Below are positions 965-28,211 of a DNA stretch of 47,658 nucleotides, piece after piece; positions within the stretch are counted from its first letter, which is position 1, and every line of letters starts with the position of its first letter. This stretch comes from Clostridiales bacterium (GTDB lineage Bacteria; Bacillota; Clostridia; Oscillospirales; QAMX01). The stretch is from assembly GCA_012800055.1 (NCBI GenBank), contig JAAZKA010000015.1, forward strand, positions 1-47,658, in the 5' to 3' direction. A program made the position numbers and the translations under genes. The notes under the pieces were generated by a model. That model worked only from the letters and a program-made list of their open reading frames with translations, was not told the origin of the DNA and made no database searches.

Positions 965-998
965 ACTCTCATACCGAATATATAAGGAGGGTGCACCC

Positions 999-2168
999 AT
1001 GAAGATCACAAATGTGCGTGCGTACCTTGTCCGGCCGCGCTGGTGTATGGTTGAGATCACGACCGACGCAGGTCTGACGGGCTGGGGTGAGCCGGTCATC
1101 GAAGGCCGCGCCGCCACCGTCCGGGCGTGCGTGGAGGAGCTGACCCCCTACCTCATCGGACGTGACCCCGGCGCGATCGAGGACATCTGGCAGACTCTCT
1201 ACCGAGGCGGATTCTACCGCGGAGGTCCCATTCTCATGAGCGCCATTGCCGGCATCGATCAGGCGCTGTGGGATATTAAAGGCAAATACTTTAATGCGCC
1301 CGTCTGGAAGCTGATGGGCGGAGCCGTCCGTGAGCGCATAGAGGTCTACGCGTGGATCGGCGGCGACCGGCCCTCCGACGTTGCCGCTGCTGCACTCGAG
1401 AAGAAAGCCCAGGGCTACCGCGCCGTCAAGATGAACGCCACCGAAGAACTCCGCTATGTCGACAGCCATACAAAGATCGACGCCGTGCTTGAACGCGTCG
1501 CACAGGTACGCGAAGCCGTCGGACGAGGTTTCGGCATCGCCGTCGACTTCCACGGCCGTGTCCACAAACCGATGGCCAAGGTGCTTGCCAAGAAACTCGA
1601 GGAGTTTGATCCCATGTTCATCGAGGAGCCCGTCCTCTGCGACAACTTCGAAGACTTCCCCGAAATCGCACACGCCTGCTCCATCCCCATCGCGACCGGC
1701 GAGCGCCTGTTCACCCGTTGGGACTTTAAGCGGCTGCTCGAACAGGGCGCCGTCGATATCCTCCAACCCGACCTCTCCCATGCCGGCGGCATCACCGAGG
1801 TCAAGAAGATCGCAGCCATGGCCGAGGCCTATGATGTCGCCCTCGCACCCCACTGTCCCCTCGGTCCCGTCGCCCTGATGGCCTGTCTCCAGATCGACGC
1901 CACCTGCCACAACGCTTTCATCCAGGAGCAGAGCATCGGGATCCACTACAACGCCGACTCCCGCGCGCTCTCCGACGCCGACGCAGTACTCGACTATATG
2001 CGCAACCGCGAAGACCTTACCTATAAGGACGGTTTCGTCACACTCCCAAAACGTCCCGGCCTCGGCATCGAAGTCAACCGCGAACGCGTCCTAGCCGAAG
2101 ACGAGCATCCCCACGCCTGGAAGAATCCTGTCTGGCGGCATGAGGACGGCTCCGTCGCGGAGTGGTGA
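999..2168 (+). CDS. dgoD: D-galactonate dehydratase (mandelate racemase/enolase superfamily)
   Basis: Dehydrates D-galactonate to 2-keto-3-deoxygalactonate in the DeLey-Doudoroff route (cytoplasm, Mg2+). The 389-residue product matches remembered E. coli DgoD over its whole length: GWGEPVIEGRA near the start, FYRGGPILMSAIAGIDQALWD, the metal-ligand region DFHGR...FIEEPV, the catalytic-base region PDLSHAGGI, LAPHCPLGP, and the end WRHEDGSVAEW. ATG 999 was chosen because AAGGAGG sits 9 nt upstream and the promoter overlaps the longer possible frame. No KDG aldolase, kinase or sugar-acid transporter is adjacent, so the rest of the pathway must lie elsewhere. The next gene starts close to or overlapping its stop. 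Confidence 0.93.
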   Translation: MKITNVRAYLVRPRWCMVEITTDAGLTGWGEPVIEGRAATVRACVEELTPYLIGRDPGAIEDIWQTLYRGGFYRGGPILMSAIAGIDQALWDIKGKYFNAPVWKLMGGAVRERIEVYAWIGGDRPSDVAAAALEKKAQGYRAVKMNATEELRYVDSHTKIDAVLERVAQVREAVGRGFGIAVDFHGRVHKPMAKVLAKKLEEFDPMFIEEPVLCDNFEDFPEIAHACSIPIATGERLFTRWDFKRLLEQGAVDILQPDLSHAGGITEVKKIAAMAEAYDVALAPHCPLGPVALMACLQIDATCHNAFIQEQSIGIHYNADSRALSDADAVLDYMRNREDLTYKDGFVTLPKRPGLGIEVNRERVLAEDEHPHAWKNPVWRHEDGSVAEW

Positions 2169-2203
2169 CGCGTACTTATCACGATATGGGAGATACAATC
2201 GAG

Positions 2204-3442
2204 ATGCGACGTTTTACTCCGCTGATAAAGCATGCAGCCGCGTTTGCAAAATGGATCGGGCTGTCGGTTGCTGCGGGACTTCTGTGCGGCGCGGTCGGGA
2301 CGGGCTTTTACTATACGGTGGATTATGTCACCAGACTGCGCATCAACTTCCCGTGGATGCTGTACACGCTGCCGGTGCTGGGACTTGTGATCGTGTGGTT
2401 GTACCGCGTGACGAAGACGGAGAACGACGGCGGTACGAATACGATTTACCGGACGGTGCGAACGGGAGAGAAGGTAACGCTGTGGATGGCGCCGCTGCTC
2501 TTCGTGTCGACGGCGCTGATACACCTCGGCGGCGGATCGGCTGCGCGTGAGGGCGCGGCACTGCAGCTCGGCGGCAGCTTCGCCGGGGCGTGCGGCAGGC
2601 TGCTGCGGCTGCGTAAGAACGACCTGCGCGTGATTACGATGTGCGGGATGGCGGCGGTTTATTCGGCAATGTTCGGGACTCCGCTGACGGCGGCACTCTT
2701 TTGCGTCGAGGTCATCAACGTCGGCAAGATGCAGTATGCGGCGCTGCTGCCGTGTGCGGCGGCATCCTATACGGCATACCTGCTGGCGACGCATCTCGGG
2801 GTTACGCCGATGGCGTTCAGCGTTCCGGCGTCCGCGTTCAGCGTGACAACGGCGCTGCAGGCGCTTGCGCTGGGTATCTTCTGCGCGGGTGTCAGCATAC
2901 TGATATGCGTGACGCTTAAAAAGGCAGAAAAGCTTTATAAAAAGTACATCCCGAACCCGTATTTACGCATCGCGACGGGCGGCATACTGGTGATTCTGCT
3001 GACATTGCTGCTCGGAACGCGTGACTACAACGGTATCGGTAGAGATGTGCTTGCGCGGGCGATAAGCGGTGAGGCGTTGCCGTGGGCGTTTGTATGCAAA
3101 ATGTGGATGACGGCACTGACATTGGGCGCAGGTTTTCGGGGCGGCGAGACCGTGCCGACACCGCTCATCGGCGCGACGTTCGGCTGCTTCGCCGGAGCGC
3201 TGATCGGACTCTCCCCTGCCCTGGGTGCCGCTGTCGGGACAGTCGCGGTCTTCTGCGGCGCGGTCAACTGTCCGATGACGGCGATCGCAATGGGTGTGGA
3301 GATGTTCGGCGCGGGCAATCTGCCGCTCTACGCCGTCGCATGCGTGGTCAGCTATACGATCAGCCTGCGCTTCAATCCCTGTACGGCGCAGAAAACTGTA
3401 CTTTTCGAGCTCGAACCCGTTGAGGAGACGGATAGTTGTTGA
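2204..3442 (+). CDS. CLC-family anion channel/antiporter, possibly fluoride-type (CLC-F)
   Basis: About 412 residues with many hydrophobic segments. CLC landmarks: GGGSAAREGAALQ (residues ~110-121 from ATG 2204) is the helix-F GREGP equivalent, and GGETVPTP with GATFGCFAG is the helix-N region. Where chloride-type CLCs have GSGIP this protein has GGTN, and Pro after REG is replaced by Ala; such changes resemble the CLC-F fluoride/proton antiporters, so fluoride export is a reasonable inference but not proven. Start is uncertain: ATG 2204 has GGGAG 11 nt upstream, ATG 2186 is possible, and a GTG at 2162 would overlap dgoD by 7 nt. No fluoride riboswitch is visible upstream, and transcription probably comes from the dgoD promoter. 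Confidence 0.82.
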   Translation: MRRFTPLIKHAAAFAKWIGLSVAAGLLCGAVGTGFYYTVDYVTRLRINFPWMLYTLPVLGLVIVWLYRVTKTENDGGTNTIYRTVRTGEKVTLWMAPLLFVSTALIHLGGGSAAREGAALQLGGSFAGACGRLLRLRKNDLRVITMCGMAAVYSAMFGTPLTAALFCVEVINVGKMQYAALLPCAAASYTAYLLATHLGVTPMAFSVPASAFSVTTALQALALGIFCAGVSILICVTLKKAEKLYKKYIPNPYLRIATGGILVILLTLLLGTRDYNGIGRDVLARAISGEALPWAFVCKMWMTALTLGAGFRGGETVPTPLIGATFGCFAGALIGLSPALGAAVGTVAVFCGAVNCPMTAIAMGVEMFGAGNLPLYAVACVVSYTISLRFNPCTAQKTVLFELEPVEETDSC

Positions 3443-3459: not shown

Positions 3460-3495
3460 GAAAACTTCCCGGAGGCAACACTCCGGGGAGTTTTC
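3460..3495. terminator. Bidirectional intrinsic terminator between convergent genes
   Basis: A 15-bp stem (3460-3474 with 3481-3495, one G-T pair, loop GCAACA) has A-rich and T-rich flanks on both sides (AAAAC / GTTTTC), so it can end both the CLC transcript and the leftward operon. Its right arm touches the stop codon of the amidohydrolase gene. Confidence 0.8.
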
Positions 3496-4289
3496 TATCG
3501 TCCCAGCAGCCGCCGCGCGTTGTCTGAAAGGATGGCGTTCTTCTCTGTGTCGGTGAGCGGGAGTGCACGGAGCGCCTGTATTTCGTCATGCGCACAGCTC
3601 CACGGCGCGTCCGAGCCGAACAGCACATGTTCCGCACCGACGGCTTTCACGATGCGCAGGAACTGGTCATGCGGGAAGTATGAGAACCCCATCGACGTGT
3701 CGAGGTAGATGCCGGAGCCTGCGAGATATCGCTCAACATCGTCCCACTGCGCGTGACCGCCGAGGTGCGCGGCGACGATCGGCGCGCCCGGGAACTCCCG
3801 CATCAGATGGGCAAAGCGTTCGGGATTTGTATGAAACGGCGGCGGAAAAGCCGGATCGTAACCTGCATGGTGCAGAATCATAAACCCACGGCTTAATGCA
3901 CAGTCGTAGATGCGCAGCATGTGGGGATCGTCAAGCAGGAAGTTCTGATACTCGGCGTGGAACTTCAGCCCCTTAAGACCCAAAGACGCGGCGAAATCAA
4001 TGGCGCTTTTATAGTCGTCGGTATGCGGATAAATACCGCCGAACGCCTCGATGCGGTCTGAGCGGACCGACGCTGCCCACTCGTTGATGCGGACAAGCTG
4101 CGACGCCTTCGTGATAACGGGCTGAAGGACAGACATGGAGATGCCCCAAGCATCCATGTTGCGCAGTGTGCCCGTGACGGTACCGTCGTGGACGGGTGTG
4201 TAGGCATACGCGGCACTTTCATACAGTCCCGCGATGGCGCGCGGAGCGAGCGTGTCGGGAAATGCATGGGTGTGAAAATCGACAATCAT
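3495..4289 (-). CDS. Amidohydrolase family 2 (TIM-barrel metal hydrolase/decarboxylase)
   Basis: 264 residues. The metal-binding HxH lies at the N-terminus (DFHTHAFP), followed by KFHAEYQ, LHHAGYD and AAHLGGH, which supply further His ligands, and the closing Asp lies in LFGSDAPW. This is the amidohydrolase-2 / ACMSD-like fold, acting on cyclic amides, lactones or carboxylated aromatics; the substrate cannot be read from sequence. It is the last gene of a leftward operon, starting 14 nt after the stop of the FAD oxidoreductase. A weak AAGG is the only ribosome binding site signal, consistent with translational coupling. It may process a product of the upstream oxidoreductase (inference). Confidence 0.82.
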   Translation of the reverse strand: MIVDFHTHAFPDTLAPRAIAGLYESAAYAYTPVHDGTVTGTLRNMDAWGISMSVLQPVITKASQLVRINEWAASVRSDRIEAFGGIYPHTDDYKSAIDFAASLGLKGLKFHAEYQNFLLDDPHMLRIYDCALSRGFMILHHAGYDPAFPPPFHTNPERFAHLMREFPGAPIVAAHLGGHAQWDDVERYLAGSGIYLDTSMGFSYFPHDQFLRIVKAVGAEHVLFGSDAPWSCAHDEIQALRALPLTDTEKNAILSDNARRLLGR

Positions 4290-4303
4290 GGGTGTAACGA
4301 CCT

Positions 4304-6130
4304 TTATACAGATTCACGGGAGAAGCGCCGAAAGACCTCACGGGCGATGGGCGCAGCGTCGACAAGCAGACCGGATGCCTTCAGCCCGACCGTCAGCCGA
4401 AAGGTGTCGGCGTTGAGAACGTCGCGCAGTGTCCGCGTGATATCCTCACGCAGCACGGGATGTTTACGGGCGATATGCTGCAGCGCGGCATGGGCGGCGG
4501 TGAACCAGAGGAACGCGCGCGTTTCGGGGCTGTCCAGCAGCGCATTGGGTGTAAAGGGGATATCGACCGTCCAAAACGGATCCCGGACGATGCGCGTGAG
4601 CAGCGGGACGGCATCGACTGCGCCGAGACGTCCGAGCGCGTGGATGGCAGAGACGGCATGCGGCGGGTTGTACTTGCGGCTCATCGAAGGGATATAGCCC
4701 GAACGGTCCTCCGCGAGTCTGAGCAGGACGGGCAGCCCGGTATCGTCGCCGAGCAGTGAGAGCGCAAGCGCCGCGTTGCATGACAGCAGCATTTCCGGCG
4801 TGCTGACCCATTCTCTCAGGAGATCGGTGAGCCGTTCACGTCTCGCCGACCAGATGGCAAGCCCGGGCGCGTCGGAGGACAGCCCTGCACGGATGGCGTC
4901 CGGGTCGGTCAGCCAGGCCAGCGGGCACTTGCGCTTTTCGTCGTACAGCCCGGGCGCGTCGGTCTCGCGCAGGCAGCCGGTCTGTGTCAGCTCCCGTCTG
5001 ACTTCCGCGACGGCGTCGGGGTCACGAATGAGCGCTGCCGGCGACACTCCGCGTGTGACGCACATCCGCGTGAGAACGGCCGCCAGTTCGCCGGATTTCT
5101 GCATCTCGTCCTTCATCCGCAGCGCCGGCGCAAAGGAATGTTCGACACTCATCGCGCGTCCGCAGATGAGCAGGCCGGCGATGCCCTTCGGTACCGCCGC
5201 GCCGCACGGAACGCCGAACCGGATGCCGACACCCCACAGTCCGGCGATCCCGAGCCAGTCGCGCGCAGGGGCGTCCTCGTACGCCGTATCCTTCCCGTGG
5301 TGGTCGACGTTGGAGTAGCCGTAGAACGCCGGCACGGGCAGCTCCCGGGGGAGCGTTACGTCTTCAAGCGTCAAGCGCTCCTCACCGACTACTGTAGCAC
5401 CCTCGCGGATACCGATGATCGGTACAAAGCCGAGAAGCAGGTTTTGTGCGTCATATTGTTCCCACAGATGCTTCTCATCGCAGGTGGTTGATGTAATATC
5501 GCGGGAATATGCCCAAGCGTCGTAGGGGTCGATCACACCGCTGTCGATGTTCCAGTGTGAGATGCGTCCGGCGTTCGCAGTGAGGAAGACGTAGGAGTAT
5601 GGCTGATAGCGTCCGTCTGCCTCGCGCCCGTAGGTGAGCGTACAGCCTGCCATGCGTGCGAGATACGCGTCGGCGGTGGCGTCGATGACAATGCGCGCAT
5701 CGGCGGTGTGACGACCGCTGTCATCGTACCACTCAACGCCGTGCACGGAGCCCGCGTCCAGAAATGCACCGGTCACGGATGCCTCGAAGCGCAGATGTAC
5801 TCCCGCGTGGACTGCCTCCTCACGCAGTGTCCGGCGCTTGGCGTATTCTTCGGCGTCCCGGACACCGTCCGGACGCGGCAGATCAAGGGTTTGGTAGAAT
5901 CCGCCGGGGTTGCCGTGGTAGTAGCCGGTGATGCCGCCCGCCGTACCGGTGCCGCCCATGCACGCAAGAGATTCAATCCCGAGCGTCCGCAGGCCTTTCT
6001 GTGCACAGAGGATTGCCGCAATTGCTCCGGCAGTCCCGAGCCCCGCAACAATCACGTCATAGGATTCATCAAACGGACTGTTGTCATATGTTTGTGTAAG
6101 AGAATCGTCAATCATTGTGCTGTAGAGCAT
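4304..6130 (-). CDS. FAD-dependent oxidoreductase with C-terminal HEAT-like extension
   Basis: About 608 residues. The N-terminal dinucleotide-binding motif is AGLGTAGAIAAILCAQKG, followed by GGTGTAGG typical of the FAD_oxidored family (glucose-inhibited-division/fumarate-reductase-like superfamily). DATADAYLARMAG (about residue 150) is the second FAD contact and LLICGRAMS (about 325) the C-terminal FAD loop. From about residue 440 short helical repeats (NAALALSLLGDDTGLPVLLRLAED, AIHALGRLGAVDAVPLLTRI) resemble HEAT/PBS-lyase repeats, an unusual addition that may bind a partner. ATG 6130 has GGAGGG 8 nt upstream and overlaps the stop of the preceding gene (TGATG), so translation is coupled. 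Substrate unknown; relatives are often found in carbohydrate-degradation loci. Confidence 0.85.
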   Translation of the reverse strand: MLYSTMIDDSLTQTYDNSPFDESYDVIVAGLGTAGAIAAILCAQKGLRTLGIESLACMGGTGTAGGITGYYHGNPGGFYQTLDLPRPDGVRDAEEYAKRRTLREEAVHAGVHLRFEASVTGAFLDAGSVHGVEWYDDSGRHTADARIVIDATADAYLARMAGCTLTYGREADGRYQPYSYVFLTANAGRISHWNIDSGVIDPYDAWAYSRDITSTTCDEKHLWEQYDAQNLLLGFVPIIGIREGATVVGEERLTLEDVTLPRELPVPAFYGYSNVDHHGKDTAYEDAPARDWLGIAGLWGVGIRFGVPCGAAVPKGIAGLLICGRAMSVEHSFAPALRMKDEMQKSGELAAVLTRMCVTRGVSPAALIRDPDAVAEVRRELTQTGCLRETDAPGLYDEKRKCPLAWLTDPDAIRAGLSSDAPGLAIWSARRERLTDLLREWVSTPEMLLSCNAALALSLLGDDTGLPVLLRLAEDRSGYIPSMSRKYNPPHAVSAIHALGRLGAVDAVPLLTRIVRDPFWTVDIPFTPNALLDSPETRAFLWFTAAHAALQHIARKHPVLREDITRTLRDVLNADTFRLTVGLKASGLLVDAAPIAREVFRRFSRESV

Positions 6131-6906
6131 CAAAACATCCCTCCTTCCCGAAGTGCCGTACCCGCGTCGAAGGCGGAGATGGGGTCGTTATAATACGCGG
6201 AAGGCCGCCATAAGAAGCCGCCAGCGTCGAACCCGGCGCGCGCGGGTGTGACGTCCGGAAGATGTGCGACGGCGGCGCGGCGCCATGGAGAGAGGTTTGC
6301 GACCGCCGCGTCGACAGCTTCCTGCGCATCGGTGAGAGAGCCGGTGAACGGGAAATGCGCCGCGCAGAGTCCCGGATACAGGCCTGAGTTTACCTCCGCG
6401 CCTTTTATGACCGGCAGCGGTGCGGCAGGATCAGCGCTGAGCAGCAGGCACGCAAGCGTCCGGGTACACGCGCCGACATCATACCCGAGTGCGCGCATCC
6501 CGACGCCGGAGGTCGTGTCGAGAACACGTGCGGCGTTCAGCGTAAGAAATCCGGCGGTGGTGAAGAAGACGGCGCGGAAGTGCTCCTTCACCCGCGACAG
6601 CTCTGTCAGACGTGCCGACAGCAGCATCCGCGCGCCGGATTCCTTATAGATCTTCGCGAGTACCGGCTGCACACCCGGCAGATGGACGGGAAGGCCGGAT
6701 GTGAGCAGTCCGCGTGTCTCGAGCGTGCGATAAAACGCGCGGGCTTTCTCCGAACGCGGCTGAGACGGAGGGGTACCGAAACCGTGCAGGGCATTGGCGA
6801 ACTCGCCGCCGATGAGGATGCCGCCGTCCGCGACAACACAGGAGCCGTCCGCATAACCTGCCGCGAGTGCGGACGCACCCAGAATCAATGTCTCAGTCAT
6901 TTTCAT
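6130..6906 (-). CDS. Compact, degenerate FAD-oxidoreductase-like protein
   Basis: 258 residues, not confidently recognised. Its segment order parallels the FAD_oxidored domain: a leading strand with ETLILGASALAAGYA where GxGxxG should be, then GGILIGGEFANAL, then a helix and ARMLLSARLTEL, then ARVLDTTSGVGMRALG in place of the usual DATGD..A..AG. The glycine-rich loop is poor and the C-terminal FAD loop is not evident, so FAD may not be bound. It sits between the ceramidase-like gene (ATGA overlap) and the full-size FAD oxidoreductase (TGATG overlap), which suggests a partner subunit of the latter. Alternatively it is a decaying duplicate, but the frame is intact and tightly coupled on both sides. 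Confidence 0.7.
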   Translation of the reverse strand: MKMTETLILGASALAAGYADGSCVVADGGILIGGEFANALHGFGTPPSQPRSEKARAFYRTLETRGLLTSGLPVHLPGVQPVLAKIYKESGARMLLSARLTELSRVKEHFRAVFFTTAGFLTLNAARVLDTTSGVGMRALGYDVGACTRTLACLLLSADPAAPLPVIKGAEVNSGLYPGLCAAHFPFTGSLTDAQEAVDAAVANLSPWRRAAVAHLPDVTPARAGFDAGGFLWRPSAYYNDPISAFDAGTALREGGMF

Positions 6907-8174
6907 AACGCTGCAGCGAGCTTCAGCAGACGCTCGGACATCTCGTACCCGGCGTCCGGCTCGGTCTGGGCGGAGCAGCAGATACGTGTGGAGTAGATGC
7001 CCTTGCGGAACAGTTCACGGATGCCGACATAGCCGATGTTGCCGTTGGCGAGGTTTGCCGTCATTGTGTACGCGGAGGGTGAGCGGTCCTTAAGGATTTT
7101 TGCGAACTCGACGTAAATCTCACCGGGCATTCCGTAGATCATCAAAGCCCCGATTTTCAGCACCTGCACGGTGACGGGAATCGGCTGGGAACCTTCCGCG
7201 TCCATCCGTCTGGCTTCGGAGGCGTAGAAGTTGTCGATCACGCCGTCCTCGGGGCGTACGGTGTCGGCCCAGGCAAGCGTTTCGGCGTCAGGAAGCCGGG
7301 ACGGGAGTGTGAAGCGGTCGTCTGCGCCGCCGATGGCGTCATCATCGGAGAGGAATATTTTCTCGTAGACCTCGCTGACGGCACCGGCGAGGATGCGGCC
7401 CATCCTGCGGTAGTAACCGGGCTCGGCGGAAGTGCCGTGCTCGAAATCAATGTGGTTGATGTTGCCGCAGAACCCGTTGACGAACAGCGGCATGAACTCC
7501 GCACCGTAGGTCTTTCTAAGCATGTCGCGCATCGCGCCGGGATAATCGCTGGAGTAGAGCGACACGCCGCCTACACTGTCGCAGTGGCAGGCGTAGTTGG
7601 CAATCAGGCCGTAGGGCGAGCCGTCGGCATTGTCGATGCGCAGCACGCCGACCTCGGGGTCGATCTCACCGAATGCACGCATCCCGGGGACGTGGGCGTT
7701 GGTCCTATAGGAACCGTCGGGAAGGACGAAGTCACGGTAGTGCGCCAGGGTGCGCTCGATGCCACTGCCATAACCGATGCGTACCGGGCGCTTGTTCTGC
7801 GCGGCGTACACGGCTGCGTCGTGTATCCGGGATCCGAGGAAATCGACATAGACGGGATCCTTATGTACGAAGTCGTCCCAGGTCTCGACCGGGCCGCCGT
7901 AGTGCGTATGCGTTGCGCACAGCAGGACAGCCGACGCGGGCATATCCAGGTCACGGGCGATCTCCGCGCGCGTCTTTAATGCAAGCTCATCGGGTATGCC
8001 GATGACGTCGCAGGTGACGAGGACGACTTTCTGACCGGCGTCATTCTCAAAGTACGCGGCGTAGGCATACAGACGCTCGAGAATGCCTTTCGCGCGGCGC
8101 AGGACGAAATGACCGGGCATTTCCATTCCGAGCGCCGGGGTGATGTCGAGCTCGTAGAGTCCGCAAAACAGCAT
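6903..8174 (-). CDS. Neutral/alkaline ceramidase-like hydrolase
   Basis: 423 residues. The N-terminus (ELDITPALGMEMPGHF...) and LLCATHTHYGGP, YACHCDSVGG and FVNGFCGNINHIDF match the N-terminal catalytic domain of neutral/alkaline ceramidases, where His residues bind zinc. It is shorter than true ceramidases (600+ residues) and has no signal peptide, so it is a cytoplasmic relative whose substrate is probably not ceramide; in other bacteria such proteins occur in sugar-related loci. ATG 8174 was chosen because GGAGG lies 7 nt upstream; the longer frame begins in the divergent intergenic region. It is the first gene of a leftward four-gene operon ending at 3495. Confidence 0.82.
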   Translation of the reverse strand: MLFCGLYELDITPALGMEMPGHFVLRRAKGILERLYAYAAYFENDAGQKVVLVTCDVIGIPDELALKTRAEIARDLDMPASAVLLCATHTHYGGPVETWDDFVHKDPVYVDFLGSRIHDAAVYAAQNKRPVRIGYGSGIERTLAHYRDFVLPDGSYRTNAHVPGMRAFGEIDPEVGVLRIDNADGSPYGLIANYACHCDSVGGVSLYSSDYPGAMRDMLRKTYGAEFMPLFVNGFCGNINHIDFEHGTSAEPGYYRRMGRILAGAVSEVYEKIFLSDDDAIGGADDRFTLPSRLPDAETLAWADTVRPEDGVIDNFYASEARRMDAEGSQPIPVTVQVLKIGALMIYGMPGEIYVEFAKILKDRSPSAYTMTANLANGNIGYVGIRELFRKGIYSTRICCSAQTEPDAGYEMSERLLKLAAAL

Positions 8175-12749: not shown

Positions 12750-13750
12750 CCGGCGTACCTCAGCGTGTAGTCCGACGAGATGTCCGAGAGCACCCCGGCA
12801 AGCCCGGAGGTCGCGACGATCTCCCGGTTCTCCGTGACAAAGACGGCTTCAAAATCACCCTGCGTTTTTTGAAATTTGAGGGCGTCATCAAGACCCATCA
12901 CGAACAATGCCGTCGCGTAGGCGTCGGCGAGCGCACCGTCGGAGCCGATGACCGTGACGCTGACAAGACCCGTCCGTGCAGGTGCGCCGGTCGAAGGGTC
13001 AAGGATGTGGTGGTAGGTCACACCGTCGCGCTCGAAGTAACGTTGATAGCTGCCGGACGTGACCACCGAGCAGTCCATGACCTGCACGACGGCAAAGGAT
13101 GCGTCGAGGCTGTACGGGTTGCGCGGTCCGATGCGCCACGGGCTGCCGTCGGGCTTGCTGCCCACCGCCCGGACATTTCCGCCGAGCGATATCACCGCCG
13201 ACGTCACACCGGCGTCCCGCAGCGCATTCGCCATGACGTCTGCCGTGTACCCTTTCGCGATGCCGCCGAAGTCGAGCGCCATCCCGGTCCTCAGCACGGC
13301 GGTATTTCCGTCGAGCGTCACATCGGAGTAGCTGCCGTATGCGCGCAGGGTCAGCAGTTCATCCGCGTCGGGTACGCGCTTGTCGGTTGATGTGAATCCC
13401 CACGCCTGCACGCACGGATAGACGGTCGGGTCAAACGTGCCGCCGGTCACATCCGCGAGTGTGAGCGCACGTGCGAGCAGTGCGGCGGTCGCGTCGGAGA
13501 GTTCGGCCGCACCGGTCTCGTTGAGCCGATACAGTTCGCTGCCCGTATCGACCGCCGAGAGCCGCGTGTCGGCTTCGTTGAGCACCGCAAGTGCGCGGTC
13601 GATCGCACCGCCTACGGTGAAACGGGAACCGTAGGCGGTGACCAGGATGTCAGTGTCCATCGCAAACGCCGCACGCGTCTCGCAATAGCTGCCGGCACAA
13701 CCGGTCAGCAGGATGCACAGCGTCAGAAAAAGTACCGATAATCTTTTCAT
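12746..13750 (-). CDS. apbE: FAD:protein FMN transferase, lipoprotein
   Basis: 334 residues. A lipoprotein signal (LFLTLCILLTGC) anchors it outside the membrane. The enzyme cuts FAD and attaches FMN to Thr/Ser of extracytoplasmic target proteins. Seen: AFAMDTDI near the start, DFGGIAKGY, SLGGNVRAVG, and HHILDPSTG with a downstream Asp for metal binding, all standard ApbE motifs. ATG 13750 overlaps the stop of the mannosidase gene (ATGA), and its own stop overlaps the NusG-II gene. No protein with an obvious FMN-binding domain is encoded in the window, so the target must be elsewhere (for example an RNF subunit or a flavinylated lipoprotein). Confidence 0.93.
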   Translation of the reverse strand: MKRLSVLFLTLCILLTGCAGSYCETRAAFAMDTDILVTAYGSRFTVGGAIDRALAVLNEADTRLSAVDTGSELYRLNETGAAELSDATAALLARALTLADVTGGTFDPTVYPCVQAWGFTSTDKRVPDADELLTLRAYGSYSDVTLDGNTAVLRTGMALDFGGIAKGYTADVMANALRDAGVTSAVISLGGNVRAVGSKPDGSPWRIGPRNPYSLDASFAVVQVMDCSVVTSGSYQRYFERDGVTYHHILDPSTGAPARTGLVSVTVIGSDGALADAYATALFVMGLDDALKFQKTQGDFEAVFVTENREIVATSGLAGVLSDISSDYTLRYAG

Positions 13751-16002
13751 TCCGGAAGCTTTTCGAGCAGTTCTGCCCATCTGCGTGTCTGTTCGAGCGT
13801 ATACGGTACCTCGCCGGTGATGTAGTGGTTGTATACGGTCTTCCCGTCATACCGCAGCGCGAGAATCAGCAGCCGCTTCTCGGAGTAAAACAGTTCCACA
13901 CCCGGAAGCTTTGTATTCTCATTGGCGGCGGCGGTGAACGTACCCTCCGCGAGTGTTTCGTCGGTTTCGGCGTCGTATACGCGGTAGGTTCCGGCGATAT
14001 CCGCGAGGGTATCGTTGCAGACGGTCAGCGGTGCGCGCCAGTTTTCGATCTCGCCCATGCACAGCACGCATCCCTGCTGCGCGCGTTTGATCCAGCGATA
14101 CGCCAGTTTCTTCTCGAAGTAGTAGTCGACGATTGCATCGGAGAACTGCGGCCAGCCGTCGGTGAGATTCCACCAGATGACGCCGGTGCCCTCCCACTTG
14201 CGCAGACGCATCGTCTCGATGAAGAACTTCTTCGCTTCGGCCTGCGCGAACTGAGAGATGAACGAGAAGTCCGGGAGGTTGTCGGGGATATAGCCGAGTA
14301 TCTGCCGCGTCTGCTTCGCCATCATCGGGATACGGCTGTCGTACCAGTGGCGTCCGGCGTCGGCGGCGTGGATGTGCCATTCATGGTTATTCTCCCACGG
14401 CCATATTGCGCCGGGCGTGATGAACTTCGCGATGCTCTCCGGAGAGTTGCAGCCATGATAACCGGTCTCGCTGACGAAGCGGGCGTTGTGTGCGGAGTAG
14501 AAGCGCGCCTTGTAGTGGTCGCGCGCACCCCAGATGTGCTGCTCTGCCGAGACGCCGTTGTAGCTTGTGTCACCGTCCGCGCGTTCGCCGAGGTCGGGCG
14601 AGCTTGCCAGGTACGGACGGTGCGGATCCTCACGCCGTACGATCTCCGGCAGCAGTCCGCGCGTGAGTTTGTTGCTCTTCGGGTCAGGATCGTAGTAGTC
14701 GCACTCGTTGTCGCCGCACCACAGAAGCAGTGACGCATGGCCCCGGAGCTTGCGGATGACCGCCGTGGCCTCCGTTTCCATGACTTTCAAAAACGCGTCG
14801 TCTTCCGGGTACGGCCCGCACGCCATTGCGAAGTCCTGCCATACCATAATACCGTATTCATCGCATAGGTCGAAGAACGCGTGATCCTCGTAGACATTGC
14901 CGCCCCAGCAGCGCACGATGTTGCAGCCGAGATCTGCAAGCATCCCGACCGCACGTTTATACCGCAGCGGGTCGCGTGAGTGGAACGCGTCCATCGGAAC
15001 CCAGTTGGAGCCTTTGCAGAAGATCGGCGTATCATTGACATAGAACTTAAACTCACGGAAACCTTTTTCACGCGGGACGCGCTCAAGCCGGACGGTGCGG
15101 ATGCCGACGCGCTTCTCAACGGATGCCGCCGGGACACCGTCGACCAGCAGCGTCACGGTCACGTCGTAGAGGTTCTGCTCGCCGTAGCCGCGCGGCATCC
15201 ACAGCTTGGGCTGCGGTATTTTCACGCCGACAAAGCCCGCAGTGAAGTAGACCTTGCTCTCCTGTGAGAACACCTGCTTGCCGCAGCGTCCCTCTATCTT
15301 CAGTGAGAGCCTGCGGATATTCTGCGGCGCGGTGCGGGAGGTGAAGTTGACCTGCAGCGTCGCTTCCGCTTCACTGACGCGGATGGGCGCGATGTAGACA
15401 TCGGTCAGCTCTGTCGCGGGGATTTCCTCGATGCGCACGCCGCGCCATAAGCCTGCCGAGACGGTGCGGGGCATGATGTCCCAGCCGAAGCACGATGCCG
15501 GTTTGCGCAGCCGGAGCTGTTCCTGATTATGGTAATAGGTCTCTCGCAGTGGGAATGGATAGTATTCCTGATCGGCAGCCCAGACAAGCGGGGAACGCAG
15601 ATAGACCTGCAGGATGTTGTCTTCCCGCAGCAGCTCTCCGCAAGGGAAGGTGTGGGCGATCAGCGCGTTCTCGGTATGCCCGAGCAGGATACCGTTGAGG
15701 TAGTAGTCGGCGATACAGTCGACGCCCTCAAAGACCAGCCGCTGTGGTTTGGCAAGCGCGTCGGCGGTCAGCGTGAAGCGGCGCTCATAGAGGTAGTCGT
15801 AGGTCTCAAACTCCTGGCACTTGAGGATGTTGTCGCCCATAAAGAGGTCATCGGGCAGCAGTCCCGCGTCCTGCAGCGCGAACTCGACGTTCCCCGGAAC
15901 TGCTGCCGGCATTGCGGGCGCTTGGGTGATCTCATCAATCGATCTCTTCTCCGCATTCGCCGGAAACGCCCACAGACGCCAGACTCCGTTTAAGCTCATC
16001 AT
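13747..16002 (-). CDS. Beta-mannosidase-like glycoside hydrolase family 2
   Basis: 751 residues, no signal peptide, so it acts in the cytoplasm on imported oligosaccharides. Order: jelly-roll sugar-binding domain (to about 180), immunoglobulin-like domain (about 185-290), TIM barrel (about 290-640) and a tail. The acid/base Glu433 lies in WCGDNECDY and the nucleophile Glu512 in FVSETGYHG, both matching GH2 beta-mannosidases (WCGNNE / SE.G); PRGYGEQNLY is also typical. ATG 16002 has GGAGG 8 nt upstream. It heads the operon that contains apbE and the Gx transporter, an unusual partnership. Beta-1,4-mannan or N-glycan fragments are plausible substrates. Confidence 0.9.
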   Translation of the reverse strand: MMSLNGVWRLWAFPANAEKRSIDEITQAPAMPAAVPGNVEFALQDAGLLPDDLFMGDNILKCQEFETYDYLYERRFTLTADALAKPQRLVFEGVDCIADYYLNGILLGHTENALIAHTFPCGELLREDNILQVYLRSPLVWAADQEYYPFPLRETYYHNQEQLRLRKPASCFGWDIMPRTVSAGLWRGVRIEEIPATELTDVYIAPIRVSEAEATLQVNFTSRTAPQNIRRLSLKIEGRCGKQVFSQESKVYFTAGFVGVKIPQPKLWMPRGYGEQNLYDVTVTLLVDGVPAASVEKRVGIRTVRLERVPREKGFREFKFYVNDTPIFCKGSNWVPMDAFHSRDPLRYKRAVGMLADLGCNIVRCWGGNVYEDHAFFDLCDEYGIMVWQDFAMACGPYPEDDAFLKVMETEATAVIRKLRGHASLLLWCGDNECDYYDPDPKSNKLTRGLLPEIVRREDPHRPYLASSPDLGERADGDTSYNGVSAEQHIWGARDHYKARFYSAHNARFVSETGYHGCNSPESIAKFITPGAIWPWENNHEWHIHAADAGRHWYDSRIPMMAKQTRQILGYIPDNLPDFSFISQFAQAEAKKFFIETMRLRKWEGTGVIWWNLTDGWPQFSDAIVDYYFEKKLAYRWIKRAQQGCVLCMGEIENWRAPLTVCNDTLADIAGTYRVYDAETDETLAEGTFTAAANENTKLPGVELFYSEKRLLILALRYDGKTVYNHYITGEVPYTLEQTRRWAELLEKLPE

Positions 16003-16035
16003 TGTAAATTCCTCCCACGGCATTTCTCATAGAAC

Positions 16036-16145: not shown

Positions 16146-16180
16146 CAAACACAAGGATTCTGACAAAGGAGAGTATGCTT

Positions 16181-17167
16181 ATGAGAATTGCCATGCTGCA
16201 GCCGCACGACAGTGTCCCGTCCATTTTCTCGGAGAAGGCACTTAAGAGACTTGAGAAAATCGGAGAAGTTGTCCGCAATCCCGGTACCGCGAGCGATGAA
16301 AACGTCAAAAAGACAATCGAGGGCGCCGACATCGCCATCACGTCCTGGGGCAATACCACGCTGCACGCCGACATCCTCGATGCCGCGCCGAACCTCCGCC
16401 TGATTGTCCACGCAGCCGGTTCCATCAAGCCGATCGTCTGCGATGCCGTCTGGGAGCGCGGTATCCGCGTCACCGGTTCGCCCAAGCCACTGGGCATAGG
16501 CGTCGCTGAGACCGCGCTGGGCTTCACGATCTCCGCGGCCAAGAACTACTACAACCTCAACGCATCGCTTCATAACGGCGGATGGGGAGAGGGCAAGGAG
16601 AATATCCGTGAGCTGTACGACTTGACTGTCGGCGTCATCGGCGCCGGATGGGCGGGCGGTCACTATCTGCGCCTGATGCAGAACTTCGACGTCGAGACGC
16701 TGCTGTATGACCCCTACTGCTCCAAGGAGAAGGCCGCGGTGCTGCACACCACCCTCGCCGACCTCGAGACCGTGCTCAGGAAATCCGATATCATCTCCAT
16801 CCACGCACCGTCCATCCCCGAGACGAACAACATGTTCAACAGGGACACGCTCGCGATGATGAAGAAGGACGCGATTCTCATCAACACCGCGCGCGGCTCG
16901 ATTATCAACGAAGCCGACCTCTACGCGCATATGAAGGCCGGCAACCTCAAGTACGCTTGCATCGACGTCTTCAATCCCGAACCTCCGGCGGTCGACAATC
17001 CGCTGCGTACATTGCCCAACGTCATCATGACCCCCCACCTCGCCGGACTTGCGGCAAACGGCAAGCTGCGCATCGGAATGCACGCGGCTGAGGAGATCGA
17101 AAAGTTCCTCGCGGGTGAGAAGATGGACTGTGAGGCGACCCGGGCGATGCTCGCGACGATGGCATAA
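16181..17167 (+). CDS. D-isomer-specific 2-hydroxyacid dehydrogenase (NAD-dependent)
   Basis: About 328 residues. The nucleotide-binding loop GVIGAGWAGG starts near residue 151, and the catalytic set Arg238 (TARGS), Glu267 (NPEPP) and His286 (TPHLAG) is complete. Such enzymes reduce 2-keto acids or oxidise D-2-hydroxy acids (glycerate, lactate, phosphoglycerate-like). It lacks the C-terminal ACT domain of long SerA. ATG 16181 has AAAGGAG 9 nt upstream; the ATG at 16175 is too close to that site. A GC-rich stem-loop follows the stop. The substrate is open; sugar-acid metabolism fits the neighbourhood. Confidence 0.9.
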   Translation: MRIAMLQPHDSVPSIFSEKALKRLEKIGEVVRNPGTASDENVKKTIEGADIAITSWGNTTLHADILDAAPNLRLIVHAAGSIKPIVCDAVWERGIRVTGSPKPLGIGVAETALGFTISAAKNYYNLNASLHNGGWGEGKENIRELYDLTVGVIGAGWAGGHYLRLMQNFDVETLLYDPYCSKEKAAVLHTTLADLETVLRKSDIISIHAPSIPETNNMFNRDTLAMMKKDAILINTARGSIINEADLYAHMKAGNLKYACIDVFNPEPPAVDNPLRTLPNVIMTPHLAGLAANGKLRIGMHAAEEIEKFLAGEKMDCEATRAMLATMA

Positions 17168-17332: not shown

Positions 17333-18541
17333 ATGTCCAATTGGAATGAACGTCTGAATAAAACCATGCCGCACGGCTCGTCGACAACGTCGAAGGCGCC
17401 GCATCTGCTGCCGGAGGAACCGGAGATCATCGTACGCGGCAACGGCTGCCGGGTATGGGATGAGAAGGGCCGTGAGTTCATCGACTTCCGCAACAGTCTG
17501 GGGCCCGTATCGCTCGGCTACCGCTTCCCGGCCGTCGACGAAGCCATCCGGAAGCAGCTCGACCACGGCATCATCTTCGGTCATCCGACGGCGCTGGAGT
17601 GCGAGGTCAGCGAGATGCTGTGCGATGTGATCCCGTGCGCGGAGCAGGCGCGCTTTCTCAAGACCGGCGGTGAAGCCTGCGCCGCCGCCATCCGCATCGC
17701 CCGTGCGTACACCGGACGTGAGCATGTGATTCAGATCGGCTACAACGGCTGGCTCAACTCTCTGGCGTCAGGTGCGAAGGTCGGGCCGCGTGAGGCTGCA
17801 CATACCATCCCCGGCGTACCGGCGGCAATCTCCGCGCTGTACCACGCCGCCGGGTGGAACGATACCGACGGTATTTCCGCGTACTTCGACGAGTTCCCCG
17901 GAAATGTCGCGGCGGTGATTGTCGCAGCGGACTACCGAAACTTCGAGCTGGGCAGCACCTTCTACCCGTTCCTGCGCGAGATCACCCGTAAAAACGGCGC
18001 GCTGCTGATCTACGACGAGATTGTGACGGGCTTCCGCGTGGCACTCGGCGGCGTGCAGGAGTATTTCGGAGTGAACCCCGACCTGTGTATCTTCGCCAAG
18101 GCGATCGCCAACGGGATGCCGCTGTCGGTGTATGCCGGTTCCCGCGAGATCATGGCGACCTGCGAGCGCAGGGGCTTCTCGATCTCCTCGACCTACGGCG
18201 GCGAGACGCTCTCCCTCGCGGCGTGCAAAGCGACCATCGAGACCTTTCGCAGCTTCGATGTCTCAGGACACATCCGCGAGCACGGCGCGTACCTGTGGGG
18301 CAAGGTCAATCGCCGCTTCAAAGCGGCGGGCGTCCCGCTGGCACTCGAAGGCGCCCCCGCCTGCCCGATGTTTATCCAAGGCAGCAGCGCGCGTCCGGGG
18401 CTGCTCAGCGACTTCTTCCGCGCGGCGTATCGACACGGCGTGTCGCTCTACAACGTCAGCTACGTCAACTTCAGCCATAAGACCGACGACTGTGACGAGG
18501 CATACGAGAGGATTTGCCGGGCGATCGAGGACGTGAAGTGA
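17333..18541 (+). CDS. PLP-dependent class III aminotransferase, glutamate-1-semialdehyde aminomutase-like
   Basis: 402 residues. Seen: FLKTGGEACAAAIRIAR (phosphate-binding region), LIYDEIVTGFR (Asp contacting the pyridine N), and IFAKAIANGMP with the Schiff-base Lys256. This resembles HemL and related aminotransferases, but no tetrapyrrole genes are nearby and the family contains many sugar and amino-acid transaminases, so HemL function is unlikely. ATG 17333 has GGAGG 8 nt upstream. It may work with the preceding dehydrogenase, but each has its own promoter. Confidence 0.85.
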   Translation: MSNWNERLNKTMPHGSSTTSKAPHLLPEEPEIIVRGNGCRVWDEKGREFIDFRNSLGPVSLGYRFPAVDEAIRKQLDHGIIFGHPTALECEVSEMLCDVIPCAEQARFLKTGGEACAAAIRIARAYTGREHVIQIGYNGWLNSLASGAKVGPREAAHTIPGVPAAISALYHAAGWNDTDGISAYFDEFPGNVAAVIVAADYRNFELGSTFYPFLREITRKNGALLIYDEIVTGFRVALGGVQEYFGVNPDLCIFAKAIANGMPLSVYAGSREIMATCERRGFSISSTYGGETLSLAACKATIETFRSFDVSGHIREHGAYLWGKVNRRFKAAGVPLALEGAPACPMFIQGSSARPGLLSDFFRAAYRHGVSLYNVSYVNFSHKTDDCDEAYERICRAIEDVK

Positions 18542-19198: not shown

Positions 19199-20497
19199 TT
19201 ATAGCTGTATGATGCCTGCCTGCAGCCAGCCGTCCTCAAGGTACTTCTTGTTGACCGCCATGCGGATGTTCACGCCGTCCGGGTTATTAAGTGCCAGAGC
19301 AATATTGAAGGTGCCGTGGAGATTCGTGAGGTCGAGTGCGAAGTCCTGCATTGTGGTACCGGGCTCCCATGCGCCGTCCGCGATGACGCCGAGGTCATGG
19401 GCTGCACCGTCAGCGGTCAGCCGCAGTTTCAGGGACAGCGGCAGATAGCACTTCGCCCAGCCGAGGTTGGTCATCGTGACGCTGCCGCCGTGCGGGGTAA
19501 GCTTAAGCGTGTCCGGCCGCAGCCAGTAGCCCAGACGGTTGGCGGCGTATTCGGCGAGGTCAGAGTTATTTTTCAGGAAGCGTCCCGGGTAGTCGTGGAA
19601 GCCCGCGTAGGTCGCGCCGGTACGTCGGAGAGCCTCGAGCGCGGGAAAACCGCTGCGCCAGACGTCCTCGGGAATCAGCTCGGCGTGCGCGAACTCAATA
19701 TCGACGGGCGCCTGATGCCGGAACGCGTCGAACAACATGGGATCGCGGAGGGTGTCGTATCCGGCGACGCTGCGGGCGGGTCCTGCGACGCAGATCGAGT
19801 CGTCGCGCAGTCCCAGTCCCAGCTCCCGGCAGTACCGTGTCAGCTCCGGGCACAGCGTCATGTCATGGTGCAGCATGTCATCGTTGACCATCAGCAGCGT
19901 ATGCGGAAACGCCGCACGGTGCATGTCGATGTGGCGGGTGAGCGTCTCCAAATCATAGTGTCCGGTCTGCGTATGCCCCTCGCCGTAGCGTCCGAAGGTT
20001 CCGACGTCGACAAACTCCAAGCGCGGGTCATGACTGTAGTGCTCACCGAGTGCCTGCAGTGTCTCTTCCGCAAAGCCGAGGAAGATGCCGTCGGAGTAGT
20101 CCGGTTCCCAGGCGTTGTTCGGCAGATCGAATCCACGCGCGCCGGCTTCACGGACATAGTCGGGCGTTGCACGCTGATTGTTGTTCCAGCGCGGCGTCTC
20201 GCACTGGAAGGTACACATGCGCATCGAGAAGCAGTACCCACGGCTCCCCCATTCGTCCATGATCCGGTCAAGGTAGGAGAAGTCATAGACGCCTTTCCGC
20301 GGGTTTATATCGCACCAGTCGAAGCGCAGGTAGAGCTGCCGCAGTCCTGGGAACGCGGTCACGTCTCCGATGAGCGCGCGGTCATCGCGGTAGCGCGGGC
20401 GGCTGTATCCGCAGTCGATGTAGTGCCAGTACCAGCCCTTGTGCGGATTGTTGAGCACCGTGCGCTCATCACGCAGCTGGTACAGGTCGAAGGTCAT
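19199..20497 (-). CDS. DUF4832-like TIM-barrel protein, putative glycosidase
   Basis: 432 residues, not assigned with certainty. The N-terminus (VLNNPHKGWYWHY) resembles the NP.rG opening of DUF4832/DUF4874 proteins, followed by barrel-like segments (LRFDWCDINPRKGVYDFSYLD, as in beta-galactosidase-type barrels; LEFVDVGTFGRYGEGH; LMVNDDML) and a C-terminal beta-domain from about residue 330 (VTMTNLGWAKCYLPLSL). No signal peptide is seen, so it would act inside the cell. ATG 20497 has GAGGTG 6 nt upstream and starts 5 nt after the glutamine synthetase stop; GTG 20506 is an alternative. Coupling to glnN is unexpected. Confidence 0.7.
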   Translation of the reverse strand: MTFDLYQLRDERTVLNNPHKGWYWHYIDCGYSRPRYRDDRALIGDVTAFPGLRQLYLRFDWCDINPRKGVYDFSYLDRIMDEWGSRGYCFSMRMCTFQCETPRWNNNQRATPDYVREAGARGFDLPNNAWEPDYSDGIFLGFAEETLQALGEHYSHDPRLEFVDVGTFGRYGEGHTQTGHYDLETLTRHIDMHRAAFPHTLLMVNDDMLHHDMTLCPELTRYCRELGLGLRDDSICVAGPARSVAGYDTLRDPMLFDAFRHQAPVDIEFAHAELIPEDVWRSGFPALEALRRTGATYAGFHDYPGRFLKNNSDLAEYAANRLGYWLRPDTLKLTPHGGSVTMTNLGWAKCYLPLSLKLRLTADGAAHDLGVIADGAWEPGTTMQDFALDLTNLHGTFNIALALNNPDGVNIRMAVNKKYLEDGWLQAGIIQL

Positions 20498-20502
20498 CGT
20501 AT

Positions 20503-22590
<2,088 letters not shown>

Positions 22591-24161: not shown

Positions 24162-27100
24162 ATGCCGCTGGATAAAAGCATTAAAAAGGTACTCGTCATC
24201 GGCTCAGGCCCGATTGTCATCGGTCAGGCGGCGGAGTTCGACTATGCCGGTACGCAGGCCCTGCGCGCGCTGAAAGAGGACAGCATCGAAACTGTCCTGG
24301 TCAACAGCAATCCCGCTACCATTATGACTGACCGCGCGATGGCCGACCACATCTACCTCGAGCCGCTTACCCTCCCGACCCTCGAGCGCATCATTGATAA
24401 AGACAAGCCCGACTCGATTCTCTCGACGCTCGGCGGACAGAACGGTCTGACGCTCGGGATGCAGCTTGCGAAATCCGGCTTCCTCGCGTCGCGTGGAGTC
24501 AGGCTCCTGGGCGCGAATCCCGAGACCATCGATCGCGCCGAGGATCGCCTGATGTTCAAGCAGACGATGGAGTCCATCGGTCAGCCGTGTGTCCCGTCGG
24601 ACGTTGTTGAAGATGTCGAGAGTGCCGTGAAGTTCGCGAACACCATCGGCTACCCGCTGATCATCCGTCCGGCGTTCACGCTCGGCGGAACAGGCGGCGG
24701 AATTGTCAATAACGAGGAGGAGCTGCGTGAGATCGCCCACGGCGGTCTGGAGGCCTCCCCCATCCATCAGATTCTCGTCGAAAAGTGCATCTCCGGCTGG
24801 AAGGAGATCGAGTTCGAGGCGATGCGCGATGCCAAGGGCAACGCGATCACGATCTGCTCGATGGAGAACATCGACCCGGTCGGCATCCATACGGGCGACT
24901 CGATCGTCGTGGCGCCGGCACTGACACTCGCTGACCGTGAGTACCAGATGCTGCGCTCGGCAGCGCTGAGCATCGTCCACGCACTCGGTGTTGAGGGCGG
25001 CTGCAATGTGCAGTTCGCGCTCTATCCGGATTCCTTCGAGTATGCGGTCATCGAGGTCAACCCGCGTGTGAGCCGTTCATCGGCGCTGGCGTCGAAGGCC
25101 ACCGGCTACCCGATTGCGAAGGTTGCGACGAAGGTTGCCATCGGTTACACGCTCGACGAGATCCCCAACGCCGTTACGAAGAAGACCTACGCGGCATTTG
25201 AACCGGCGCTCGACTATGTGGCACTGAAGATGCCGAAGTGGCCGTTCGACAAATTCGTCTACGCAAAGCGTGAGCTGGGTACGCAAATGAAGGCGACCGG
25301 CGAGGTGATGAGCATCGCGCCGAGCTTCGAGATGGCGCTTTTAAAGGCTGTCCGCGGCGCTGAGATCGGGCTGGACACGCTCAACATGCCGAGTATGGCG
25401 AAGAAGACCGACACGGAGCTGGAGCAGATCATTCGCCATGCGACCGACGAGCGTCTGTTTGCGGTGTACGAGGCGATGAAGCGCGGTGTCAGCATCGAGA
25501 CGCTCTATAATTGGTCAAAGATCGACCGCTGGTTCTTGCATAAGTTTATGGCGCTTCTCGATTTCGAGCGCACGATTAAGGGCAATTTGACCGAGGAGCT
25601 GTACCACGAGGGTAAGCGTCTGGGCTACCCGGATGCGGCGCTGAAGCGGATATCGGGCTGCGAACTTCCCTGCGCGATGCAGAAGCCGATGTTCAAGATG
25701 GTCGACACCTGTGCCGGGGAGTTCTACGCGGAGACGCCGTACTTCTACTCGACCTTCGATACACCGGAACAGGGCGGCGTGGACGAGGCATATAAGCTTG
25801 CGACCGCGCATAAGCGGCGAAAGGTGCTGGTCTTCGGTTCCGGCCCGATCCGCATAGGACAGGGCATCGAGTTCGACTATGCGTCGGTCTACTGCGTGTG
25901 GGTACTCAAGGAGCGCGGCTACGAGGTTGTCATCATCAACAACAATCCCGAAACTGTCTCGACCGACTTCGACACCGCCGACCGGCTGTACTTTGAGCCG
26001 CTCTGCCCCGAGGATGTTATGCATATCATCCGTCATGAGAACCCGATGGGCGTGGTGGTTGCGTTCGGCGGACAGACGGCGATCAAGCTGACCAAGACCC
26101 TTGCGGAGAACAACATCCCGATCATCGGAAGCTCCGCCGACACCATCGACATGGCGGAGGATCGCGAGCGCTTTGATGAGCTGCTTACGAGTCTTGACAT
26201 CAAGCGCCCGCGCGGTCATACGGTCATGACGGCGGATGAAGCACTGCGTGCCGCAAACGACCTTGGCTACCCGGTGCTCATGCGTCCGTCGTACGTGCTG
26301 GGCGGGCAGAACATGATCATCGCCTACTCCGACGATGACATCCGCGAGTATATGGAGATCATCCTGCGTCAGAAGCAGGACAACCCGGTGCTCATCGATA
26401 AGTACCTGTCGGGTCTGGAGATCGAAGTCGACGCGATCTGCGACGGCGAGGATCTGCTGATGCCGGGCATCATGCAGCACATCGAGCGCACAGGTGTCCA
26501 TTCGGGCGACAGCATTGCGGTCTACCCCGGTCCCGACCTAGACGACGAGCTGCGTGCGAAGGTCGAGGACATCACGCGCAAGCTGTGTAAAGGATTGCAC
26601 GCAATCGGCTTGGTCAACTGCCAGTACATTGTTGTCGGACGCGAACTCTACGTCATCGAAGTCAACCCACGTGCGTCGCGTACGGTGCCGTATCTGTCGA
26701 AGGTGACGGGCGTGCCGATGTGCGAGTTGGCGGTGCGGTGCAGTTTGGGAGAGCATCTGCGCGACCTGGGCTACGGCACGGGGCTGTATAAAATGTCACC
26801 GTACGTGACGGTGAAGGTGCCGGTCTTCTCGTTCGAGAAGCTGACGGACGTCGATACGCAGCTCGGGCCGGAGATGAAATCGACCGGCGAGGTGCTGGGC
26901 ATCGGTAAAAATCTGCGTGAAGCGCTGTTCAAGGGGCTGATTGCGGCAGGCTACACGATGCGCAAGACCGGCGGTGTGTTCATCTCGGTGCGCGGGACGG
27001 ACAAGCCGGAAATCGCGGACATCGCAAAGAAATACGCGCAGTGCGGGTTCACGCTCTACGCCACCTCGGGTACGGCGGCGGTCTTACGCCACGCGCATCT

Positions 27101-28211
27101 GAAGGTCAACGAGATTGCAGACTTTCATGTTGACGGTCACGAGGCGATCCGGCTGCTCGAGAGCGGAAAGATCAACTACGTGGTTTCAACATCGGTTCGC
27201 GGGCGCAATCCGTCAAGAGAGAGTGTGAAGCTGCGCCGTCGTGCGATCAGCCTGCGCATCCCGTGCCTGACTGCGCTCGATACCGCGAAGGCGGTTGCCG
27301 AGACGCTGCTGTCCCACTACTCTGAGCTGAACACCGAGCTTGTGGACCTCAACGCGATGCGTCAGACGCGTACGAGCATCAAGTTCACAAAGATGCAGAC
27401 CTGCGGCAACGACTACATCTACATCAGCGCGTTTGACCAGGACATCCCGTCTCCGGAGTCGCTGACGGTGCTGCTGTCAGACCGCCACTTTGCAATCGGC
27501 GGCGACGGCGTTGTCGTGATGGACCGCTCGTCCGTCGCGGACGCGAAGATGCGCATGTACAACAAGGACGGCTCCGAGGGCCGCATGAGCGGCAACGCGA
27601 TCCGCTGCGTGGCAAAGTATCTCTACGACAACGGCATTGTCCGCAAGCGGGAGATGACGATTGAGACGCTGTCGGGTGTAAAGACACTCTCATTCGTGAC
27701 GCACGACGACCGGGTATGCCGTGTGACGGCGGACATGGGCAAGGCCGTACTCGACGCCGCGGAGGTGCCGGTGAAGCTCGACGGCGAGCGTGTGATCAAC
27801 CGCAAGGTTTCCGTTGCGGACGGCGAGTACGCGATTACCTGCGTGTCGATGGGCAACCCGCACTGCGTGGTGTTCGTGGATGAAACGGACGACATAGACG
27901 TACCCGGAATCGGACCGAAGTTCGAGTACGACCCGCTGTTCCCCGAGCGCGTGAATACGGAGTTTGTACAGGTGATCGACGAGCGCACGTTAAAGATGCG
28001 CGTCTGGGAGCGCGGCAACGGCGAGACACTGGCGTGCGGCACCGGTGCGTGTGCGGCGGTGGTCGCGGCAGTCGAGAACGGCTACTGCACCAAGGGGGTC
28101 GACATCCGTGTCATCCTCCTCGGCGGTGACCTCATCGTCCGCTATACCGACGATACCGTACTGATGACCGGCGAGACCATCAAGGTCTACGACGGCGTTG
28201 TGGAGATCTAA
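24162..28211 (+). CDS. carB-dapF: Fusion of carbamoyl-phosphate synthase large subunit and diaminopimelate epimerase-like domain
   Basis: 1349 residues in one uninterrupted frame. Residues 1 to about 1065 are a full CarB: first ATP-grasp half ([19 protein letters not shown]...), oligomerisation region, second half beginning [20 protein letters not shown] near 555, and the methylglyoxal-synthase-like allosteric domain ([18 protein letters not shown]...YATSGTA). After a linker of about six residues, 1072-1349 is a full DapF: [55 protein letters not shown]. DapF interconverts LL- and meso-diaminopimelate with two Cys; the second is Cys1292, but the first is Ser1143 (AGC at 27588). ATG 24162 has GGAGGG upstream. 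ATG 27357 at the junction has no ribosome binding site, so separate DapF synthesis looks unlikely. Two terminators follow. Confidence 0.93.
   Translation: [1349 protein letters not shown]

Follow-up and report, generated by a model that had tools for sequence, protein, structure and literature searches.

A conserved pair of FAD-fold genes in a four-gene operon of a Clostridiales bacterium: a candidate two-subunit flavoenzyme accompanied by two hydrolases

The DNA analysed here, 47,658 nucleotides of contig JAAZKA010000015.1 from a Clostridiales bacterium (GCA_012800055.1; hereafter "the window"), belongs to a draft genome that is 88.8% complete and distributed over 159 contigs. Between positions 8174 and 3495 it carries four leftward genes, designated A, B, C and D, which form a single operon. 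The features discussed below are:

990..2165, + strand: galactonate dehydratase gene (NCBIfam NF010624, 1.1e-193, above cut-off)
3460..3500, both strands: intrinsic terminator for both directions, shared by the operon and the convergent ClC gene (RNA folding of both strands)
3495..4289, - strand: gene D, 264 aa, metal-dependent amidohydrolase (PF04909)
4304..6133 (start at 6133 or 6130), - strand: gene C, FAD-dependent oxidoreductase (PF12831) with a C-terminal helical HEAT-type domain
6128..6133, - strand: TGATG junction of B and C, read from the sequence as translational coupling
6130..6906, - strand: gene B, 258 aa, compact protein of FAD fold, the smaller partner of C
6903..8174 (start ATG), - strand: gene A, 423 aa, short ceramidase-fold (PF04734) hydrolase with zinc ligands retained

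Genes A and B overlap by 4 nt in an ATGA (6906-6903), the stop codon of B (6132-6130) runs into an ATG start of C (6130-6128), with a TTG at 6133 as the alternative start, and C and D are spaced by 14 nt (4303-4290). The hairpin at 3460-3500 sits between the convergent ends of the ClC channel gene (2162-3442) and gene D; its folding energy is -27.3 kcal/mol on the + strand (z -8.3) and -22.1 kcal/mol on the - strand (z -6.1), and no shuffled sequence was equally stable on either strand. The first-pass annotation of this DNA had proposed a single four-gene operon, and the ATGA, TGATG and 14-nt junctions together with the strong bidirectional hairpin at the end bear this out.

Gene A passes the Pfam cut-off for Ceramidase_alk (PF04734, 38.8 bits vs 32.1, E-value 6.2e-10) and fails the NCBIfam equivalog for neutral ceramidase (NF041649, 14.7 bits vs a cut-off of 1200). 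A profile built from A and its relatives (nine members) matches the neutral ceramidases 4wgk (4e-24) and 2zws (7e-20). Residues H89, H91, H197 and Y382 of A are invariant in this set and the PGE motif is present. The zinc ligands, which we take to be the two His of the HTH motif, a further His, a Glu and a Tyr as in the ceramidase structure, align with those of 4wgk and 2zws. The family is multi-copy within the order (54/295 genomes), and on inspection some of its members are flanked by genes resembling those of sugar metabolism. The 2.1-Mb draft genome of the window itself (G000) encodes at least six paralogues of A (contigs C100, C107, C109, C114 and C87), two of them in tandem on C114, which amounts to a large family expansion. 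At the other end of the operon, gene D scores well above the cut-off for Amidohydro_2 (PF04909, 85.3 bits vs 26.4, E-value 7.9e-24), has relatives of known structure in 3cjp and 3irs, and contains the motifs DFHTH, HLGGH and GSDAPW. Relatives of D occur in most genomes of the family, some of them beside genes resembling those of aromatic amino acid synthesis.

Gene C is a clear member of PF12831 (130.3 bits vs 27, E-value 1.5e-37) and is also matched by HEAT_2. Its GxGTAG motif retains G31, G33 and G36 in 39 of 39 sequences, so the GxGxxG signature is intact. The predicted structure (pLDDT 90.2, from a 39-sequence alignment) resembles geranylgeranyl-reductase-like and related FAD proteins over the first 400 residues (3oz2, Z 19.9), and a sequence profile links the helical tail to designed HEAT (alphaRep) proteins. 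Gene B is less conventional: the window protein has no Pfam match and stays below the PF12831 cut-off, while 20 of 39 relatives match that family at E<=0.1, which makes the kinship of B to PF12831 a distant one only. Its AlphaFold model (pLDDT 95.2, likewise from 39 sequences) superimposes on glycine oxidase 4ysh (chain of 368 residues) with Z 16.4 and rmsd 4.2 over 250 residues, and 999 of the 1000 chains in the structure search reached Z 8 or more; B can thus be confidently predicted to adopt a complete but miniature FAD/amino-acid-oxidase (DAO)-type fold. The dinucleotide motif reads GxTxxG in place of GxGxxG: the second glycine is replaced by Thr in 35 and by Ser in 4 of the 39 sequences, and in the window protein, where the motif is GASALA, the third glycine is Ala as well, so FAD binding by B is uncertain. 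The acidic residue (E or D) after strand 2 is kept in 39/39, and the DTT motif has an invariant aspartate. PDB sequence searches started from an individual A, B or C protein brought no useful match, and NCBIfam contains no family specific to B or C, the matches listed for the window proteins being partial and far below their cut-offs.

Comparison across genomes ties B and C closely to each other. Relatives of B were found in 6 of 295 genomes of the order (own genome counted) and in 9 of the 391 genomes sampled from the class; the order's sixth match, in G185 (E-value 2.9e-4, residues 182-254 only), was not taken as a true B. Wherever an order or class locus with an intact B could be read, a C-type gene follows B directly. 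A search of GTDB contigs with C only, from which one spurious hit (L078) was left out, returned 49 true loci, mostly from Paenibacillus and otherwise from Clostridia of several families, and B adjoins C in 48 of 48 testable cases; the 49th (L063) begins inside C and has no sequence on the side needed. The order is B-C in all of these loci but L031. In the relatives, too, the ends of B and C overlap or almost touch: an overlap is present in 39 of the 46 loci where it could be measured, with gene calls in the relatives taken as automatic longest frames and starts chosen automatically. No relative of C was detected on plasmids at E<=1e-30. All searches combined, and with the window included, there are 58 B-C loci. 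When the C profile was run against the 391 class genomes, nine matches reached E<=1e-90, followed by a gap down to 5e-49 and then by generic PF12831 proteins; the nine strong matches lie in exactly the nine genomes with B, and thus at high score neither gene occurs without the other. In one genome B and C are naturally fused in a single 908-aa frame (L007), which was encountered in two separate collections (L007 and L054 are the same contig). The distance matrices of B and C correlate with r 0.91 over 54 pairs, against a maximum of 0.24 in 2000 permutations, and paralogues within one genome each keep their own B or C partner. We take this agreement to reflect strict co-inheritance, paralogues within one genome included, and the sequence data strongly support B and C as an obligate pair.

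B is itself remotely homologous to C (hhalign E-value 6e-7 in a single comparison), and MAFFT, given the two as one chain, aligned B sequences with C's FAD domain. This kinship would fit paralogues from a tandem duplication that work as separate flavoenzymes and have no more in common than their operons, but we regard that as highly improbable, given that neither is found at high score without the other in the 391 genomes, that B has no canonical FAD motif, and that the two are fused in nature. The first-pass annotation had described two flavoprotein-like proteins side by side; their adjacency is upheld, and a single enzyme in two parts is the better reading, given the natural fusion of the genes and their one-to-one co-occurrence. 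The sequence of B also changes more rapidly than that of C (median pairwise identities of 27% and 38%, respectively), which, together with the small size and altered dinucleotide motif of B, would suit a protein that serves C as a dedicated chaperone or in flavin insertion or stabilisation and is no subunit of the working enzyme. This, too, appears improbable, although less so: the natural fusion, and the fact that divergent paralogues pair strictly one to one, are more in keeping with a permanent subunit, and B has kept both its acidic residue after strand 2 and its DTT motif. Taken together, the fusion, the co-occurrence and the matching distances suggest that B and C form a physical complex.

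Several Clostridia also encode frames of 930-985 aa (L128 on G554:C86, L129 on G635:C92, L131 on G505:C41, and those on G306:C55 and G305:C56). The frames of L128, L129 and L131 start with a Rossmann-like domain of ~310 aa, which bears a GSTLRG motif in two of the three, and continue with a FAD domain of the PF12831 type and an additional C-terminal portion. Their tandem FAD-fold layout recalls B-C. The N-terminal domain is equally like B (hhalign 9.5e-9) and C (2.8e-9), and for this reason we do not claim its orthology with B.

The surroundings of B-C point to carbohydrates. With neighbour classes assigned by BLAST clustering and inspection, 34 of 56 B-C loci have sugar ABC-transporter genes at a distance of up to about six genes, and 44 of 56 have genes of AraC-type or two-component regulators; both are raw counts without a matched background, and the first should be read in the light of the Paenibacillus genomes, which are rich in sugar ABC transporters anyway. 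Catabolic neighbours, each in a few loci, include heparinase II/III-like (Hepar_II_III) and Alginate_lyase proteins, GH97, GH120, the glucuronate isomerase UxaC, D-2-hydroxyacid dehydrogenase, ADP-ribosylglycohydrolase and GDSL esterase. In L050 a mandelate-racemase-type (MR/MLE) dehydratase, related to the galactonate dehydratase of the window, directly follows C. These neighbours point to complex polysaccharides, perhaps uronate-rich ones. Genes of the ADP-ribosylglycohydrolase family stand beside B-C in L033 (confirmed by Pfam) and in L031 and L073 (assigned by BLAST cluster). In the window no sugar transporter stands beside the operon, and the galactonate dehydratase gene, convergent with the operon and located beyond the ClC channel gene, is possibly a functional neighbour only; the carbohydrate link is weaker here than in the other B-C loci.

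Other parts of the window deserve brief mention. A GH2-type glycosidase (13747-16023, - strand) and a GH42-like protein (19199-20506, - strand) enclose genes for a 2-hydroxyacid dehydrogenase (16175-17167) and a class-III aminotransferase (17333-18541), and this stretch might be a further sugar locus. Farther along, a 1349-aa frame (24162-28211, + strand) comprises a complete carbamoyl-phosphate synthase large chain and a diaminopimelate epimerase. About nine other genomes of the family have frames of 1340-1359 aa with the same epimerase, and several of them encode a stand-alone epimerase besides. This CarB-DapF fusion is conserved, and its joining of pyrimidine/arginine with lysine/cell-wall steps is unusual.

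Genes A and D are not regular companions of B-C. Single-sequence and profile searches of all retrieved loci found no relative of A in any other B-C locus, and none of D except for a remote partial match in L021 (profile E-value 1e-5, pairwise BLAST E-value 0.007); the complete A-B-C-D set recurs in none of these other loci. The gene-neighbourhood comparison that had been suggested for the four families therefore came out positive for B and C and negative for A and D, and the notion of a conserved four-gene set is not supported, as only B and C remain neighbours in relatives. The operon could nevertheless encode a real, lineage-specific four-step pathway that cleaves, oxidises and hydrolyses its substrate: the genes are tightly packed and overlapping, they share a terminator, the chemistry of hydrolases plus oxidoreductase is plausible, and a galactonate dehydratase is encoded nearby. 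We nonetheless consider such a pathway rather unlikely, since the set was seen nowhere else and the relatives of A and D are found in unrelated contexts. On the sequence evidence, A and D are best read as local additions, that is, accessory hydrolases from widespread families with other contexts. Two further suggestions of the first-pass annotation agree with our results, namely that the four genes imply no known pathway and that a link to sugars is likely, B-C loci often carrying genes of sugar uptake and polysaccharide breakdown.

The reading that we favour, and consider probable, is that B and C make up a two-subunit flavoenzyme acting on a carbohydrate-derived substrate, and that A and D are independent hydrolases joined to the operon. 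C, with its intact FAD-binding fold and HEAT-type tail, would be the catalytic subunit and presumably holds FAD, whereas B, which has a smaller version of this fold and a modified dinucleotide motif, would dock on C and serve as a structural or second-cofactor subunit. Such an enzyme would oxidise (or reduce) a hydroxyl or comparable group of a molecule derived from carbohydrate, and a carbohydrate is presumably its substrate in the window bacterium as well. A would act as a zinc-dependent amide or ester hydrolase of the ceramidase fold and D as a metal-dependent amidohydrolase, presumably on the substrate of B-C, in steps that precede and follow the redox reaction. As neither gene is a regular companion of B-C, the case for these roles comes from the operon of a single genome, and both the roles and the order of steps are speculative.

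More tentatively, B-C may found a new class of two-subunit flavoenzymes that serve Firmicutes in polysaccharide catabolism; a small FAD-fold subunit that has lost the canonical dinucleotide motif would complete the active site of the PF12831 + HEAT catalytic subunit or wire electrons to it, and the same tandem plan may recur in the fused 930-985 aa proteins of other Clostridia. PF12831 proteins are abundant and mostly annotated just as "FAD-dependent oxidoreductase"; if one branch needs an unannotated partner, this would explain why the family has stayed unnamed, and C expressed alone may yield inactive protein. B-C would also point to an oxidative step in the breakdown of uronates or complex polysaccharides that annotation has missed.

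A search of open-licence papers returned none on the B-C pair, and the main text of a transcriptome study of Paenibacillus JDR-2 mentions neither FAD nor flavoprotein (PMC4765114). Among known systems, neutral ceramidases (4wgk, 2zws) have the fold family and zinc ligands in common with A, but they are 646-688 aa long as opposed to 423 aa, and their C-terminal part falls outside the regions matched by A. With PF12831 (FAD_oxidored), which has many single-gene members in the same bacterial class, C shares the GxGxxG motif, but it differs from the generic members in its HEAT-type tail and in never being found at high score without B, whereas for the generic proteins of the same genomes (~430 aa) no such dependence on a partner was seen here. 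Glycoside 3-oxidases and pyranose oxidases carry out flavin-dependent oxidation of sugar hydroxyls before cleavage (PMC10646112); they belong to the GMC superfamily and C to PF12831, and the analogy is functional only. Heteromeric sarcosine oxidase and L-proline dehydrogenase, both among the fold matches, likewise combine several flavin-fold subunits in one enzyme, but B-C has no sequence membership in either, has the HEAT tail and lacks their other subunits. In the anaerobic glycerol-3-phosphate dehydrogenase, the adjacently encoded GlpA and GlpB are FAD-type-fold subunits thought to form one dehydrogenase. GlpA/GlpB models are absent among the matches listed for B and C of the window, and only one relative of B touches the GlpB model, weakly. 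Unlike GlpABC, the operon has no GlpC iron-sulphur subunit, its other genes being A and D only, and C belongs to a FAD family other than that of GlpA; the likeness lies in the arrangement, as B-C also consists of two adjacent genes that both encode a FAD-type fold.
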